From NCBI GenBank assembly GCA_902618205.1, contig CACMZL010000001.1, positions 248,001-312,000 on the forward strand: a DNA stretch of 64,000 nucleotides. The letters run 5' to 3'. The notes beneath the pieces were generated by a model. The model saw nothing but the letters and a program-made list of their open reading frames with translations. It did not search any database and had not been told where the DNA came from. Source of the DNA: an uncultured Pelagibacteraceae bacterium (GTDB taxonomy: Bacteria > Pseudomonadota > Alphaproteobacteria > Pelagibacterales > Pelagibacteraceae). Position numbers and translations under genes: made by a program. This document shows positions 22,392-37,855 of this stretch, in pieces. Numbering within the stretch: position 1 is the stretch's first letter; every line of letters starts with the position of its first letter.

Positions 22392-22878
22392 TCTCGTAAC
22401 TCCAAGGATATTTTAAATCTGTTTTATTTATTTTTTTAAATTCTGCTGTTGGAAGTTTCACCAGCTGCTCTTCTAATTCGTACTGGTCCAACTTAGGATA
22501 TAGATAAGTTTTGTTTGTAGCTTTGTTTGATATGTGATCTTTTAATAACTTCCATCCTTTACTTGAGTTATATCTTTTGAAACCTAGATCTTTGATAAAG
22601 GTTCTATGTCTTGGCAAATCAAATACTAAATACTTACCAGCATCTTTTATTTTTATCAGCGGCTCACTATCAATTCTTATTCTAGTCATACGGACCAGAC
22701 TATGCTGCACTTGCTCAAGTGATAACTGAAACTGTCCAGCTATATCTACAAGTCTAATAAATGATGTTAGGTTTTTTACATTAAACTGTTTGCAACAGTA
22801 CGAATAAATTCTAAAGTCATCATCTTGTAATTTTAATTCAGTCAATACTTTAGGATCAGATAGATAAAAATTTGACAT
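22363..22878 (-). CDS. Putative winged-helix phage protein
   Basis: A 171-residue protein. The N-terminal 95 residues read as a winged helix: 'DDDFRIYSYCCKQFNVKNLTSFIRLVDIAGQFQLSLEQVQHSLVRMTRI' then a beta wing 'PLIKIKDAGKYLVFDLPRHRTF'. The rest is basic. This is the fold of Rep/DnaD-type initiators and of some regulators. It is transcribed leftward from the divergent control region. Function not established; replication initiation or gene regulation are both possible. Confidence 0.5.
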   Translation of the reverse strand: MSNFYLSDPKVLTELKLQDDDFRIYSYCCKQFNVKNLTSFIRLVDIAGQFQLSLEQVQHSLVRMTRIRIDSEPLIKIKDAGKYLVFDLPRHRTFIKDLGFKRYNSSKGWKLLKDHISNKATNKTYLYPKLDQYELEEQLVKLPTAEFKKINKTDLKYPWSYENAKKLRASN

Positions 22879-23356
22879 AGCTTTGTTGGCGAATAAATCT
22901 ATTTCCGCATTTATTGTTTTCTATTTTTCTAATTAAATAATCTTTGGCAGTGCAATCAGGTCCATGAGATTTAAGGCTCATGTGTTCCAGAAATTGCAGC
23001 ATATTATCTGGCGATAAGTTTCTCCACTTCTTATCGCTGTATGGTCTAATTCTATTTATATCAAAGCGAATGATTTCTCTGAGCCTAGTACTTTCATCAA
23101 CGGTATAAAATATTTCATAGTATGGAATATCAGATCCTTCAGCCAATACTTTGTATGGTCTTTGATGCCACCAGTCTTTGCCTTTAAATCTAAAGTCTAT
23201 ATTGTAGATAGTATCAGCTATAAATAGTGGAGCAGCGCAAGCTGGACAGATCCCAACTACGTCAATATCTGTCATATTTACTCCATCATGTTGCCTCCTA
23301 TGCCATGTAGAAAATGGACTATCTATGGTTGATTGTGAACGCTTATATCTAGGCAT
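22856..23356 (-). CDS. Zinc-ribbon-like phage protein of unknown function
   Basis: A 166-residue protein, the first leftward gene after the control region. It contains 'FSTWHRRQHDGVNMTDIDVVGICPACAAPLFIADTIYN', a CxxC knuckle in a globular alpha/beta context, plus two further Cys near the C-terminus ('GPDCTAKDY', 'NNKCGNRF'). The 'CPxCxxPLFIxDTIYN' pattern looks like a small family seen in marine phages. It overlaps the next gene by 23 nt. No known function. Confidence 0.5.
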   Translation of the reverse strand: MPRYKRSQSTIDSPFSTWHRRQHDGVNMTDIDVVGICPACAAPLFIADTIYNIDFRFKGKDWWHQRPYKVLAEGSDIPYYEIFYTVDESTRLREIIRFDINRIRPYSDKKWRNLSPDNMLQFLEHMSLKSHGPDCTAKDYLIRKIENNKCGNRFIRQQSYVKFLSI

Positions 23357-23400
23357 TAAAAATCCTTTAGTTTCCGAGGCTTATTTGTCAACAAAGAAAA

Positions 23401-23440
23401 TGGTCAAATTTGACTTGAATTATGGTTGTATAGGTATATA
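23401..23440 (+). promoter_or_regulatory. Operator O1 and promoter in the divergent control region
   Basis: tggtcaaatttgactt (23401-23416) is an imperfect copy of the perfect palindrome tggtcaagcttgacca at 24932. Its right half gives TTGACT (23410-23415), a good -35; tatata at 23435-23440 could be the -10 (19-nt spacer). The site sits between the leftward late-side genes (start 23356) and the repressor gene (start 23469), where an autoregulatory lambda-type operator belongs. Confidence 0.6.
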
Positions 23441-23468
23441 TGAGACCAACAAATAAATAATAAAATTT

Positions 23469-24641
23469 ATGAAATTTAGTATCAAATGGAACAAAGCTCC
23501 TCCGTCTGGCATAGCTGGCAAGCTAGAATATTTCGACATAGAACTTAGACAAAACTACGGATTACTTGAAGATGATTATGCTCAGGTTAAATCTCACTTC
23601 TCATATCAAACAGTAAAAAAAGGAAAGTTTTTTCCTGAAACAGAAACAAGAGTAAGAACTGTTTCTGGTAATCCAAAAGAAGTTTACGATTATCATTATG
23701 AAAGAGCCAGTGCATCAAGAGGTATGTTCGAGAGAGCTTGGCAAGTTGCAAAGAATAAAAATTTAGATAGCTTAACTGTCTTTCCATTTAAGCAAGCATA
23801 CACAAGTGAAAAATTACAGCATGAAATAAATAATACTTTTTATGGTGGAGCAAGAGAGTTTGCAGAAAAATCAAAAAAAGATTATTCAAATATCCATAAA
23901 GAATTAAAAGGAAAAAGAAAAATATCTTTAAACCAAGCAATAGAATATTCTAAGTTTTTAAATTGTGATCCAGCAAAATTACTGTTTGAAGATTTACAAA
24001 CCAAAGTATGGGCAGATGTAGATTTTATTCATCCAAGATCAAATGCAAATGAAGTTCTATATCCAGCTGGTCAATTAAAATTTTTAAATGAAGATAAATT
24101 TACAAAAGTTCCAAGAGATATTTGGAGACCATTAATTAGATGTGTAACTGTAAGATCAAAAGGATCATTCTTAGATAGACACAATTTATTTTATTATAAA
24201 TCAAAAGATAAAAGTCCACCTAACTGTCATGGCAAACTATGTCTTATTGGAATAAATGTTTTTGATGATGTGATGCCTGATTATGTTTCATACTTTGTAG
24301 GTATCTATGAAGAAGGACTAGGCGGTAAAATAAATATTGCTAATCCAGATCCGTTTGCAAAAAACAAATATATATTAATTGATGTACAAAATATAGAAGT
24401 TGTTGCTCCAATTGTTGCTGTTGTAAATCCAATGCTAGCAGATGATACAGATGTAAAAAATCAAATAGAAGATTACAAAAGAATTAAAGAAGATGAAGTT
24501 AAAGAAATGCAAATGATAATTAAGAAGCATGAAGAACTTCAAAAGGACCAAGAGAAAAAATTAAAACAAATACAAGATGAGCTTTATAATAAAATTAAAG
24601 AAACTGAAGCTAGATTAGATAGTGAGAAGAAACGTGCCTAA
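23469..24641 (+). CDS. Putative lysogeny repressor (HTH plus S24-like domain)
   Basis: A 390-residue protein. Residues 1-125 are of unknown type. Residues about 128-172 ('AREFAEKSKKDYSNIHKEL', then 'ISLNQAIEYSKFLNCDPAKLLF') are an XRE-like helix-turn-helix. Residues about 195-320 ('LYPAGQLKF', 'HNLFYYKS', 'CHGKLCLIG', 'DYVSYFVGIYEEG', 'YILIDVQNIEVVAPIVAVV') are a LexA/S24-type beta-barrel, but I see no obvious Ser/Lys catalytic pair. Residues 325-390 form a coiled coil. It is larger than lambda CI (237 aa) and has the HTH in the middle. The position at the late/early divergence next to two shared operators supports a repressor role. Confidence 0.7.
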   Translation: MKFSIKWNKAPPSGIAGKLEYFDIELRQNYGLLEDDYAQVKSHFSYQTVKKGKFFPETETRVRTVSGNPKEVYDYHYERASASRGMFERAWQVAKNKNLDSLTVFPFKQAYTSEKLQHEINNTFYGGAREFAEKSKKDYSNIHKELKGKRKISLNQAIEYSKFLNCDPAKLLFEDLQTKVWADVDFIHPRSNANEVLYPAGQLKFLNEDKFTKVPRDIWRPLIRCVTVRSKGSFLDRHNLFYYKSKDKSPPNCHGKLCLIGINVFDDVMPDYVSYFVGIYEEGLGGKINIANPDPFAKNKYILIDVQNIEVVAPIVAVVNPMLADDTDVKNQIEDYKRIKEDEVKEMQMIIKKHEELQKDQEKKLKQIQDELYNKIKETEARLDSEKKRA

Positions 24642-24921
24642 GATTGTTGGAAAGAAACAAACTCATAATTATTGCAAAGAAGAAATTTTAAAAAAAATAA
24701 AAAATAATCCGTCTTTAAAATTAACTGTAGGTCAGATATTAATATTGTTTCCAGACTATACTGCTAATCAATTAAAACATTTTAGATCAGCAGCATATAA
24801 AGGTAATGATGCTCCACCAGTTGATTTAAGATTTGGAAGACCACGTTATCAATACGATCAGTTTCTTGGATGGCATAAGAACACTGCGGACAAAACGGCA
24901 AAAACGGCAAAAGCATCTTAA
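24622..24921 (+). CDS. Small basic protein co-transcribed with the repressor
   Basis: A 99-residue protein. It overlaps the repressor's 3' end by 20 nt when started at GTG 24622, or by 8 nt from GTG 24634; both starts lack a strong ribosome site. The sequence is Lys-rich and helical with 'LKLTVGQILILFPDYTANQLKHFRSAAYKG', which could be a small DNA-binding helical domain. No family recognised. It lies in the repressor transcript, so expression in the lysogen is likely. Confidence 0.5.
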   Translation: MRRNVPKIVGKKQTHNYCKEEILKKIKNNPSLKLTVGQILILFPDYTANQLKHFRSAAYKGNDAPPVDLRFGRPRYQYDQFLGWHKNTADKTAKTAKAS

Positions 24922-24931
24922 AAGTCTATAG

Positions 24932-24970
24932 TGGTCAAGCTTGACCATTTTCATTGTATTAAAATTATAA
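24932..24970 (+). promoter_or_regulatory. Operator O2 and early promoter
   Basis: tggtcaagcttgacca (24932-24947) is a perfect 16-bp palindrome related to the site at 23401. It overlaps a -35 TTGACC (24941-24946), with a -10-like ttataa at 24965-24970 (18-nt spacer). The first early gene starts at 24989, only 19 nt downstream. Binding of the repressor here would block the early operon, as expected for lysogenic control. Confidence 0.7.
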
Positions 24971-24988
24971 GTCGTTATCTAGGCTTAT

Positions 24989-26002
24989 ATGAAAAAAAAC
25001 GATACAGTTTTAGATGATCCTTTAGATCATCCAGCTTTACCACTCTTTGGACAAAAGCTTGGCATAAATCATCACTCACCTACTCAAGCTTCATTACCAG
25101 ATGGTGCATGGCTTTTTAAATATTTAGTGCTTACTCAGGAACAAAGAAGAATGCTTCCAAGTAATGCTAACATGAAAGCTGGTGTAGCTGTCAATGAAAT
25201 ACTCCAACAGTTTTACGGAGATACTATTTGGAAATTAAATCCACTTACAAAAAAATTAATGCCATACGCAAATGCTTTGCAGTATGCAGACAAGCAAGAA
25301 TTAATTACAAAAAATTTAGATAAGTTTAAAGAGTATGATCCTGTCGATGATAAGGATAGAGAAAAATTTGAAAAGTATCAGGCAGAAATACCTGAAGTAT
25401 CATTACATGGTTTCTCAGCGCTTGAGAAGTTAGGAGCTGCAAATCTTGGTCCGATAGTTTGTGAAGAACAAATATCAATTACGCAAAGTTCTTCTCCATT
25501 GTTGCTTAGTGTAGTTGGTCGGACTGACTTTGCTTTTGGTGGTAGCTTAGATGCTACAATCCCATCACTGATTGTTGAGTTAAAAACATCTTGGTCGAAA
25601 CTTGGTAAGATCAGGAAAGATGGTAGTAGAGGATTTATTAGTTTGCCTTTACCAGCAGCTCCTTCATTCAATCACCTTACTCAATGTGCATTCTATGCAG
25701 CTAAATATAATTATGAAGCTCCAGTAGCTTTAGTCTATTTAACCAAAGCTGGTTATCAAATATTTAATAAAGATAATTGTTGGGATCTAACACCTGAAGG
25801 TCTTCAAAAAAATTTCAGGTTGATCTGTAACGTATTCAAAAGAAGAGAAAAAATATTAGCTCAGTTTGAAAAGAAGGATGCAATCGAAATTATAAAAGGT
25901 GCAGCATCTTTAATAGATCCAAACTTTGACCATCCTTGGGCATGGTTTTCTTTTGGTGATGAGAATTTGAAACAAGCAAAACGATTATGGAATTTTAACT
26001 AG
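24989..26002 (+). CDS. PD-(D/E)XK exonuclease (RecB/Cas4-like), recombination
   Basis: A 337-residue protein. The catalytic core is visible as 'SVVGRTDFAFGG' (D180) and 'SLIVELKTSW' (E197-x-K199), the motif II/III of PD-(D/E)XK exonucleases in the RecB/lambda-exonuclease group. The upstream part, with 'NMKAGVAVNEILQQFYG', is the usual motif I helix ('G..vh..l...'). It is followed 8 nt later by a probable ssDNA-annealing protein, so the pair should form a phage double-strand-break recombination system. It is the first gene of the early operon. Confidence 0.75.
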   Translation: MKKNDTVLDDPLDHPALPLFGQKLGINHHSPTQASLPDGAWLFKYLVLTQEQRRMLPSNANMKAGVAVNEILQQFYGDTIWKLNPLTKKLMPYANALQYADKQELITKNLDKFKEYDPVDDKDREKFEKYQAEIPEVSLHGFSALEKLGAANLGPIVCEEQISITQSSSPLLLSVVGRTDFAFGGSLDATIPSLIVELKTSWSKLGKIRKDGSRGFISLPLPAAPSFNHLTQCAFYAAKYNYEAPVALVYLTKAGYQIFNKDNCWDLTPEGLQKNFRLICNVFKRREKILAQFEKKDAIEIIKGAASLIDPNFDHPWAWFSFGDENLKQAKRLWNFN

Positions 26003-27699: not shown

Positions 27700-27952
27700 G
27701 CAGCGTAAGCATACTGTATCAATTCATAAATCGGTCTATCATGATGTTAATACTGGTGCATACGCTGCACTAGGTGGACCGTTCTATATAAAAAAATTAT
27801 TAGGCAAAGCTCACTACTTGGTAAGAGCTTCAGATGCTTTTTATCATGAAGTATCACCAGCTTGTTTTGAAGCTACATTAGAAAACTCAAAACATCTGGA
27901 CACCTATTCCATCAAGAAGAAACTGGAGGCATTCCATGAACACCAGAGCTAG
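27692..27952 (+). CDS. Small early protein of unknown function
   Basis: An 86-residue basic protein ('SVYHDVNTGAYAALGGPFYIKKLLGKAHYLVRASDAFYHEVSPACFEATL'). It is alpha/beta with no signal or membrane segment and no recognised family. An ATG overlap with the upstream gene (8 nt) and with the downstream XRE gene (17 nt) shows a coupled transcript. GGAGG at 27681-27685 serves as ribosome site. Confidence 0.5.
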   Translation: MSKQRKHTVSIHKSVYHDVNTGAYAALGGPFYIKKLLGKAHYLVRASDAFYHEVSPACFEATLENSKHLDTYSIKKKLEAFHEHQS

Positions 27953-28310
27953 AAGAACAGATGCAGCAAATGTTCAGAATAAAATTATTGGAAAAAATTT
28001 AAGGTTTATTAGGCACTGTAGGAAGATGACGTTGGAGAGATTAGCAGCTGCAGCTGGTTGCAGATACCAACAGATAGGTAAGTATGAATTAGGAGTAGAT
28101 CAAATGTCTGCTTACAGAGTTCTTCAATTGTCACAAATTTTAAAATGCAAAATAAAATATTTTTTTGATGCAACATACATCGAAAGAATGAAAGCATATC
28201 ACAACAGAGTTTATCATGCTGCTATGCCACCTGAGCTGCTTGATATTGATGAGCTTCAAGCTGAGGCTATCAGAGACTATGACATGGCGGAATTGCAAGC
28301 GAGATTATGA
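27936..28310 (+). CDS. XRE-family HTH regulator
   Basis: A 124-residue protein. Residues about 15-75 form a Cro/C1-type helix-turn-helix: 'IGKNLRFIRHCRKMTLERLAAAAGCRYQQIGKYELGVDQMSAYRVLQLSQIL'. The C-terminal 45 residues are helical and acidic. GGAGG lies upstream at 27925-27929. It is a candidate Cro-like early regulator that could compete with the larger repressor for the shared palindromic operators. This is an inference; it might also act on host genes. Confidence 0.75.
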   Translation: MNTRARRTDAANVQNKIIGKNLRFIRHCRKMTLERLAAAAGCRYQQIGKYELGVDQMSAYRVLQLSQILKCKIKYFFDATYIERMKAYHNRVYHAAMPPELLDIDELQAEAIRDYDMAELQARL

Positions 28311-29298: not shown

Positions 29299-30576
29299 TT
29301 ATTTTAGAAGTTTTATTGGAGTTTCTCTGTACTGCTCAATCTTAGCAGCCATACCTTGATGCTCTTCTTCATTAAAGAGATCGTGGTTTCCATAGATTTT
29401 TTCTGTTGTATCAAAATCGTCATGCCCCATAACTCTTTTGATATGGTCCTCTGATAGCTGCAAAATATTTTTAGATTGTATTAACTGGACAGCTTTTAGA
29501 TGCCTCCAAGTTTTATTTATGCAGCCTTTAAATTTACCTTCAAGAATAGTAAATGTTTTAGAGCCATTGTCATTGGACCACTTTATCTTTGCCATGCCAA
29601 GTATCTCGTAAGTTGCCCATACTATTTTTCTTAGCATGAATGGAGATAAAGGATTTTTACCTCTTGTTGCTGGAATTAAATAATCATTTGTTGGATTATA
29701 TTTCCAAGAATAATTTACAATCCATCGAAGCTTATTATGTGCCTCACCATTTGGAGCAAAGTAAACTTTTCTTTTTGATCCAGCATTCTTAGTTGTATGT
29801 CTAAAAATATATTGATCTGAAAAATCAAACATACCTTGAACATCAACGTAACACTTCTCAAGATCAACAGCTGACTTTTTCAAGCCTAACATTTCTGAAG
29901 GTCTGAAACCAAAATAGAAATTGATAGTAAATATCATGCAAGCATACGCAGCATAAACACTATCGTTCCTATGATCCCAAACAAATTGCAAAAGCTTGCT
30001 TGCTTCAGCTGGTGTAATAACAGTTGCTTTCACAGTATCTTTCAAATCAGGATCAGCTGGCTCATATTCTTTTGGTATTCTATATTCCAAAGCTGATTGA
30101 AAGTTATTGTGGTACTGTTGCTGTAAACACCATCTAAAAAATCTTCTCATGTTTGCAGTAACAAGCTTAGCAGTTTTGTACATCTCAGGTTTTCTTCCAC
30201 TGTCCAAAAGCTTATCAACAAACTCTCCCATAAGTTTACCACCAATTTTATGAACTGGTACATCTGGAAAGTTTGGCTGGATATGCAGATTGAAATGTCT
30301 CAAATAAATATCTCCAGCAGCTTTGGTCAGTACACTAGCATAATTTCTACCACCATCTTTTTTAAGATTTGCAAATTTTAGAAACAGCTCATGAAAGCTG
30401 TATTCTTTATCTACAACTATTCCTTCATGGTGAGCAATCTTATGCTTATCCACGTACTCTAGTGCTAATGTTTTATTAGGAAAGTCAGCTATTTGTTTTT
30501 GCTTACCTTCAACCAATTTAACGACACAAAATTTACCTCTTCTATGCCTTATCCAATATGTTTGTTTTTGATACAT
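29299..30576 (-). CDS. int: Tyrosine site-specific integrase
   Basis: A 425-residue phage integrase. Catalytic residues can be read: Arg225 in 'FGFRPSEML', Arg358 and His359 in 'TWRHLKAVQL', His385 in 'VMGHDDFDTT' and the nucleophile Tyr395 in 'EKIYGN'. The N-terminal half carries arm-type and core-binding domains ('YSFHELFLKFANLKK'). It lies 235 bp from the 3' end of tRNA-Met and faces away from it, the standard arrangement of an integrated tRNA-targeting prophage. It should catalyse attP x attB recombination. The upstream region holds a TTGACT -35-like box and an inverted repeat (30669-30692). Confidence 0.95.
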   Translation of the reverse strand: MYQKQTYWIRHRRGKFCVVKLVEGKQKQIADFPNKTLALEYVDKHKIAHHEGIVVDKEYSFHELFLKFANLKKDGGRNYASVLTKAAGDIYLRHFNLHIQPNFPDVPVHKIGGKLMGEFVDKLLDSGRKPEMYKTAKLVTANMRRFFRWCLQQQYHNNFQSALEYRIPKEYEPADPDLKDTVKATVITPAEASKLLQFVWDHRNDSVYAAYACMIFTINFYFGFRPSEMLGLKKSAVDLEKCYVDVQGMFDFSDQYIFRHTTKNAGSKRKVYFAPNGEAHNKLRWIVNYSWKYNPTNDYLIPATRGKNPLSPFMLRKIVWATYEILGMAKIKWSNDNGSKTFTILEGKFKGCINKTWRHLKAVQLIQSKNILQLSEDHIKRVMGHDDFDTTEKIYGNHDLFNEEEHQGMAAKIEQYRETPIKLLK

Positions 30577-30811: not shown

Positions 30812-30888
30812 TGGTAGCGGGAAGTGGGATCGAACCACTGACCTCGGGCTTATGAGTCCCGCGCTCTAACCAACTGAGCTACCCCGCC
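30812..30888 (-). tRNA. tRNA-Met (CAT), elongator type; attR of the prophage
   Basis: The 77-nt gene, with CCA encoded at 30814-30812, starts GGCGGGG and ends TCCCGCT-A-CCA. The acceptor stem closes with G-U pairs at both ends. D-arm GCTCAGTTGGTTAGAGC, anticodon loop CTCATAA (CAT) and T-arm AGTGG-TTCGATC-CCACT are all present. The first pair is G-U, not the mismatch with C1 typical of initiators, so it is the elongator. An A/G opposition lies at the top of the anticodon stem. The 3' end faces the integrase, marking it as the phage attachment gene. Confidence 0.92.
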
Positions 30889-36781: not shown

Positions 36782-37855
36782 ATGAAAGAATATTCAATAG
36801 CGTCAATTGCTGGTGACGGAATTGGAAAAGAAGTTGTACCTGAAGCGCAAAAAATTTTAAGAGAAATTTCTCAGCAACATCAATTTAAATTAAATATAGA
36901 AGATTATGATTTTGCATCATGTGATTATTATGAAAAACATGGAAAAATGATGCCAGACGACTGGAAAGAAAAGCTCACTAAACACGATGCAATTTTCTTT
37001 GGTGCAGTTGGCATGCCAGATAAATACCCTGACCACATAACACTTTGGGGATCATTGTTAAAATTTAGAAGAGAGTTTGATCAATTTATTAACTTAAGAC
37101 CCGTAAAACTTTTTGAAGGTGTTAATGCACCACTAGCTAGTAAAAAACCTGGTGATATTGACATGATAATTGTTAGAGAAAATACTGAAGGTGAATACTC
37201 ATCAGTCGGTGGAAGAATGTATCAGGGAACTGATAGAGAAGTTGTTATTCAAGAAACAGTAATGTCAAAATATGGAATAGATAGAGTTCAACAATTTGCA
37301 TTTGAATTAGCTAAAAAAAGAAAAAGAAAAAAACTAACAAGTGCTACTAAGTCTAATGGTATATCAATAACAATGCCTTATTGGGATGAGAGATTTAACG
37401 AAAATAAGAAAAATTACTCTGATGTAGAAACTGATCAATATCATATCGATATATTGGCTGCTAGATTTGTTTTAAGTCCTGAACGCTTTGATGTGATAGT
37501 TGCATCGAACCTTTTTGGCGATATTTTATCAGATCTCGGGCCAGCATGTACTGGAACTATTGGAATTGCACCATCTGGAAATATTAATCCAACAAATAAA
37601 TACCCATCTTTATTTGAACCCGTTCATGGATCCGCACCAGATATTGCGGGACAAGGGATAGCTAATCCAATTGGTCAAATTTGGTCAGCTGCAATGATGT
37701 TAGATTACTTAGGTGAAAAAGAAGCTTCTGATAGAGTAATAAATTCAATTGAATTAACTCTTAAAGATAAAAACAGTCGAACAAAAGATCTTCAAGGCTC
37801 TAGTAATACAGAACAATGTTCAAAAAAAATTTTAGATAATCTTAGTTCAGTCTAA
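36782..37855 (+). CDS. Tartrate/D-malate dehydrogenase family protein
   Basis: A 357-residue member of the isocitrate/isopropylmalate dehydrogenase family. 'IAGDGIGKEVVPEA' is the nucleotide-side start; 'LWGSLLKFRREFDQFINLRPVKLFEG' and 'IIVRENTEGEYSSVGGRMYQGT' are specific to the tartrate dehydrogenase/D-malate dehydrogenase (TtuC/DmlA) branch rather than LeuB; 'NLFGDILSDLGPACTGTIGIAPSGNI' is the metal/NAD part. It oxidises and decarboxylates D-malate or tartrate with NAD. The gene follows guaC by 0 nt, yet a functional link is not clear. Confidence 0.85.
   Translation: MKEYSIASIAGDGIGKEVVPEAQKILREISQQHQFKLNIEDYDFASCDYYEKHGKMMPDDWKEKLTKHDAIFFGAVGMPDKYPDHITLWGSLLKFRREFDQFINLRPVKLFEGVNAPLASKKPGDIDMIIVRENTEGEYSSVGGRMYQGTDREVVIQETVMSKYGIDRVQQFAFELAKKRKRKKLTSATKSNGISITMPYWDERFNENKKNYSDVETDQYHIDILAARFVLSPERFDVIVASNLFGDILSDLGPACTGTIGIAPSGNINPTNKYPSLFEPVHGSAPDIAGQGIANPIGQIWSAAMMLDYLGEKEASDRVINSIELTLKDKNSRTKDLQGSSNTEQCSKKILDNLSSV

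Follow-up and report, generated by a model that had tools for sequence, protein, structure and literature searches.

Matched palindromes at two control points of an HTVC010P-type pelagiphage and their likely recognition by a CI-like regulator

A prophage of the HTVC010P type (Ubiqueviridae), resident in a Pelagibacter (SAR11) genome of 1.376 Mb, carries a common palindrome at two control points 1.53 kb apart, one (O1) at the divergence between the leftward operon and a regulator gene and the other (O2) ahead of the first early gene. We propose that O1 and O2 are most likely the two cognate operators of the 390-aa protein, reg, encoded between them, which would serve as the phage's own CI-like lysogeny/immunity repressor. 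This reading draws chiefly on comparisons between related phages, in which the palindromes are conserved in place and covary with each other; the same comparisons bear out the proposal of an earlier note that a temperate phage here shares one operator between two control points, as well as the placement it gave them at the divergence and before the first early gene.

The palindromes and their setting in the prophage

The window (i.e., the whole stretch of DNA analyzed, 64,000 nucleotides) shows the order lef (−), O1, reg (+), small ORF (+), O2, nuc (+), with the packaging/structural operon to the left of O1, and reg, a 99-aa gene, O2 and the early genes, nuclease first, to the right. The prophage terminase shares 71% identity with its counterpart in Pelagibacter phage HTVC028P, with the next matches coming from other HTVC010P-type pelagiphages. 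The latter are assigned to the Ubiqueviridae, HTVC028P itself being placed in the genus Vigintioctopevirus of that family (PMC10504331). The principal features are:

22856–23356, − strand: lef, the first leftward gene, 166 aa, function unassigned, heading the packaging/structural operon
23401–23416, no strand: O1, putative operator TGGTCAAATTTGACTT, lying where the leftward operon and the regulator gene diverge
23469–24641, + strand: reg, 390-aa CI-like regulator with domain, PHROG and fold matches; operator type appears to track it alone
24622–24921, + strand: 99-aa protein whose gene overlaps the 3′ end of reg; relatives swap in unrelated small ORFs
24932–24947, no strand: O2, putative operator TGGTCAAGCTTGACCA, centre 49.5 bp upstream of the nuclease ATG
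24989–26002, + strand: nuc, the first early gene, a 337-aa putative nuclease homologous to HTVC028P gp07
27936–28310, + strand: 124-aa XRE protein, encoded at the distal end of the early operon
29299–30576, − strand: tyrosine integrase (Pfam PF00589 and PHROG integrase), related to the HTVC028P integrase
30812–30858, no strand: right attachment site, the 47-bp 3′ part of tRNA-Met

A check of the sequence agrees with the earlier note on the coordinates and form of both sites: O2 is a perfect 16-bp palindrome, lying 10 bp past the stop codon of the 99-aa gene and with 41 bp between its end and the nuclease ATG at 24989, and O1 is a 16-bp palindrome with two mismatches. High-frequency random occurrence in the host, which that note had named as a refutation, was not encountered in the genome scan: the perfect O2 16-mer occurs once in 1,376,173 bases, and both the 12-base core common to O1 and O2, TGGTCAANNTTGAC, and the string TGGTCAA-N2-TTGAC are confined to O1 and O2. 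A further operator match with two mismatches, TGGTCAAATTTGGTCA at 37672–37687, lies outside the prophage, lacks the shared core and is probably due to chance.

Two small reading frames accompany reg. Between O1 and reg lies a six-codon mini-ORF (MRPTNK stop, 23440–23460). Five close relatives were checked for it: four (L002, L003, L004 and L006) retain six codons, and L005 has a shorter version (MRQ stop). The small ORF following reg is always present in the relatives, ranges from 79 to 132 aa and belongs to several unrelated families; it is possibly an exchangeable partner, for instance an anti-repressor.

Operator types and their covariation across relatives

Searches with reg, the 99-aa protein and the nuclease yielded relatives among viral contigs and Pelagibacter-family genomes, as well as in phage HTVC028P. 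Dozens of viral contigs, and HTVC028P too, share the order lef, O1, reg–small ORF, O2, nuc. Close relatives have TGGTCAA sites at both places, with O1 invariant in all type-A relatives sampled. Distant relatives bear other palindromes, yet in nearly every lineage a single palindrome is common to O1 and O2. Labels assigned by eye from the operator sequences distinguish about ten operator types between lineages:

Type A (window): TGGTCAA-N2-TTGACCA
Type B: TTGTACA-NN-TGTACAA
Type C: TTGTCAA-NN-TTGACAA
Type D: TTGCCAA-NN-TTGGCAA
Type E: TTGTAA-N4-CTACAA
Type F (HTVC028P): AGAC-N5-GTCT
Type G: TTATCCA-N3-TGGATAA
Type H: TTATCC-N5-GCATAA
Type I: TAGTCA..TGACTA
Type J: TTCTACA..TGTAGAA
Types K and L: poorly defined

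Types A, C, D and I are close variants of one another, and the position of O2 is kept across the types. Scanning the regulator alignment against the genome contigs returned no match.

Covariation was assessed on 17 representatives of regulator clusters (<60% identity) as the best ungapped 16-base match between the O1 and O2 regions, a score that contains no palindrome criterion. The O1 and O2 regions of one phage match on average at 14.5 of 16 bases, as against 12.2 when partners are swapped, a value that none of 100,000 permutations reaches; an earlier run on shorter regions gave 14.1 versus 12.0 (0 of 20,000 permutations). HTVC028P, with an own match of 12/16, does no better than its swapped pairs. 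In a held-out test, the viral collection was scanned with a pattern consisting only of the type-G operator and a −10 downstream of it; 15 contigs matched, every one of which carries the lef, O1, reg, O2, nuc switch. Among nine of these type-G contigs that were checked at O1, seven have a perfect type-G site and one a type-H-like site, and no clear site was found in the ninth (L127). The type-A 16-mer by itself is unspecific, 5 of the 12 viral contigs containing it having the switch module.

Promoters flanking the operators and the mode of action of reg

Three promoters are predicted around the palindromes:

24954–24981, + strand: predicted early promoter of nuc; −35 TTGTAT (24954–24959), 16 bp, −10 TATCTA (24976–24981)
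23415–23442, + strand: predicted reg promoter; −35 TTGAAT (23415–23420), sharing its first bases with the last two of O1, 16 bp, −10 TATATG (23437–23442)
23364–23391, − strand: predicted leftward promoter; −35 TTGACA (23391–23386), 16 bp, −10 TAAAGG (23369–23364)

Aligning the relatives on the centre of O2 reveals a conserved −35 (TTGNA, TTTACA or TAGACA) starting 13–14 bp past that centre, followed by a 16–17 bp spacer, a −10 of TATNTA or TATATG and 6–8 nt to the ATG (7 nt for nuc of the window); the distance from O2 centre to −35 holds in almost all of 24 loci spanning types A–K. O1 lies near or over the reg promoter, with a geometry relative to it that depends on the type, and its centre is 5–17 nt from a conserved leftward TTGAC(A/T) −35, which reads TTGACA or TTGACT in most types and TTTACA in type J. 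The predicted reg promoter is kept with small changes in L004–L006, L070 and L072, and the predicted leftward start falls at about the ATG of the leftward gene.

These alignments alter two parts of the earlier account. It had taken a TTGACC overlapping O2 for the −35 of the early promoter: the string is present in type-A O2 and is unlikely to act as a −35 because the operator changes between types while the promoter stays, the conserved element being instead TTGTAT, 13–14 bp past the centre in nearly all types. It had also read the imperfect O1 and the perfect O2 as weak and strong sites by design. The two mismatched bases of O1 are, however, the first two of the predicted reg −35 TTGAAT and are invariant in the sampled type-A relatives, so that membership in this −35 can account for the imperfect arm and tuned affinity is not needed; O1 and O2 of other types are equally symmetric.

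The predicted −10 boxes (24976–24989; 23364–23356) end 6–8 nt before the ATG in most relatives. A leaderless mRNA is probable for nuc, and transcripts of the early and the leftward operon may alike lack a leader.

We posit that a reg dimer would bind each of O1 and O2. At O1 it would limit its own promoter together with the abutting leftward (late) promoter, and at O2 it would sit just upstream of the early −35 and shut the early promoter, conceivably through contact with RNA polymerase or through O1–O2 bridging across 1.53 kb. Lineages with differing palindromes would be heteroimmune.

A different and rather unlikely reading retains O1 and O2 as reg operators and has reg activate from upstream of the −35 at O2, and perhaps leftward too. 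Such a place is typical of activators as well as repressors, almost all types hold the operator centre at about 49 bp ahead of the nuc start and 13–14 bp upstream of the −35, and several types show an equal operator-to−35 spacing at the reg promoter. Repression is nevertheless favoured because the many diversified specificities fit immunity repressors rather than activators, because reg is missing from lytic relatives that share the nuclease (the HTVC024P region has nuc and no reg), and because reg keeps company with an integrase: among the phages of the collection, HTVC028P alone has reg, together with a related integrase. Further, the fold and PHROG matches of reg are to repressors.

Far less probable still is that O2 is an intrinsic terminator hairpin ending the reg–99-aa operon and resembles O1 incidentally. 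In its favour, the RNA of O2 folds with an energy of −9 kcal/mol (z −2.7), TTTTC follows the stem, and the site lies 10 bp past the stop codon. The hairpin is genuine in type A. In most of the other types, however, either the palindrome is not followed by a T-run or the stem cannot form, and the covariation of O1 with O2 contradicts a terminator role in general. Partial termination may be a second role of O2 in type A.

The regulator and its likeness to known immunity repressors

The earlier note had offered both the 390-aa and the 124-aa proteins as binders of the shared operator. The 124-aa XRE protein is of the Cro/C1 HTH type, which lends some appeal to the idea that it, or a Cro-like action of the 99-aa protein, replaces reg at O1 and O2. 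This idea too is very doubtful, for both proteins can be closely similar across differing operator types. The XRE protein is 100% identical between type-E and type-L phages and 87–90% in types G and F. For the small ORF, identity reaches 87% between types C and G and is about 80% for A against C, and within type A unrelated versions occur. Reg, in contrast, does not exceed 53.5% identity between operator types, and its HTH recognition region changes with them, reading DYSNIHKELKG in type A, DYSNLFRELKG in type B and AAPSLYHHVSG in type G. Since sequences of the XRE protein and the small ORF are common to differing operator types, reg is left as the specificity determinant, and operator type, as judged from these comparisons, follows reg and its recognition helix and neither of the other two proteins. 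The covariation likewise speaks for the 390-aa protein as the recognizer. Half-site distance correlates weakly with recognition-helix distance (r 0.32; 250 of 10,000 permutations), a relationship confounded by phylogeny. A chance pair of functionless palindromes is scarcely credible: taken by itself, the window leaves the pair suggestive and not beyond chance, with six operator matches at ≤3 mismatches against 3.7 expected (13 of 100 shuffles reach six) and four perfect 16-bp palindromes in 64 kb, but conservation, position and covariation across dozens of relatives settle the matter.

Reg comprises an N-terminal domain, an HTH at about residues 128–173, a LexA-like C-terminal domain at about 173–325 and a coiled-coil tail. 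Pfam HTH_3 is detected in 15 of 27 homologs, the PHROG matches are to transcriptional repressor families, and both place the HTH mid-protein. In Foldseek searches, the AlphaFold2 model of reg matched the lambda-186 hybrid repressor (7jvt) and lambda repressor (3bdn) in the PDB, alongside CI-named phage repressors; the matches have low TM-scores of 0.2–0.5, and the same PDB search also returned phosphonate enzymes (MPnS/HEPD) at low TM-score. Modelled alone, the C-terminal domain attains a pLDDT of 90.8, and its four best matches are LexA (best E 0.009, TM about 0.4–0.5). By a correspondence drawn from motif and fold, not from a solved structure, the Ser of the LexA motif is the invariant Ser233, and the position of the catalytic Lys is Gly278 in 27 of 27 homologs; the Ala–Gly cleavage dipeptide is not conserved among these 27. 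Reg hence lacks the full set of catalytic Ser, catalytic Lys and cleavage dipeptide expected of RecA-cleavable S24/LexA-type proteins. RecA-driven self-cleavage appears unlikely because of the invariant Gly at the catalytic Lys position, and repression would be relieved by another route. The domain, PHROG and fold matches are consistent with the CI-type architecture of a Cro/C1-class HTH repressor with a C-terminal oligomerization domain, and the palindromes, apparently specific to their repressor, lie at the early and divergent promoters as would be expected of CI-type operators.

In the lambdoid immunity regions (lambda, 434, P22; also 186 CI), heteroimmune types arise in which repressor and operator change together. 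Like lambdoid CI, reg combines an HTH with a LexA/CI-like C-terminal domain and is associated with short palindromes next to early promoters. Unlike lambdoid CI, it has an internal rather than N-terminal HTH, a long coiled-coil tail and Gly at the catalytic Lys position. The locus, too, differs from its lambdoid counterparts in flanking the repressor operon with single operators, one per end and 1.53 kb apart, where lambdoid phages have tandem triplets, in lacking a Cro gene back to back with reg, and in placing O2 upstream of the conserved early −35 rather than over it. Of the lambda-like switch envisaged earlier, the sharing of one operator between two control points is supported; three operators with divergent, back-to-back cI/cro are not seen, there being one site per control point.

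A parallel in evolutionary behaviour is offered by the Cluster A mycobacteriophages, related temperate phages whose repressors and binding sites diverge together, yielding homo- and heteroimmunity (PMC6550527). They differ in carrying 20–30 asymmetric sites throughout each genome, as opposed to two symmetric sites at two promoters in the pelagiphage. HTVC028P resembles the window prophage in gene order, integrase, O1/O2 arrangement and a reg homolog, gp05 ("putative DNA binding protein"), and differs in its type-F operator AGAC-N5-GTCT and a reg only about 31% identical.

A CI repressor, operators and heteroimmunity are already known kinds of part. We tentatively suggest, as a broader possibility, that the temperate branch of the Ubiqueviridae has an immunity locus that is hypervariable, spanning at least ten repressor/operator specificities, in which a non-cleavable LexA-like repressor acts at a fixed site upstream of the −35, perhaps as a dual repressor/activator with O1–O2 bridging. 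The locus would then allow the heteroimmunity groups of SAR11 phages to be mapped from sequence. A literature search, made without the main HTVC010P-type pelagiphage paper, found no description of lysogeny control in HTVC010P-type phages, nor of an operator at each end of a repressor operon, a Lys-less LexA-like domain or this number of specificities. SAR11 is the most abundant bacterial group of the ocean, and phages of the HTVC010P type rank with the most abundant of its viruses; co-changing repressor–operator pairs could allow prediction from metagenomic contigs of which prophages should exclude which phages, and the operator types offer natural matched pairs for studying the co-evolution of HTH recognition helices and operators.

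The integrase gene adjoins tRNA-Met, and the 47-bp 3′ tRNA repeat recurs about 35 kb away, at contig C1:243682, with 45 bp of it found again at C1:245322. These two repeats (47 and 45 bp) lie beyond the left end of the prophage, separated by 1.64 kb (L103:12683–14367; contig C1:243682–245366), and enclose a single 346-aa ORF, an ArsP_1 permease (PF03773), which suggests that this attachment site holds another small insertion or a remnant.
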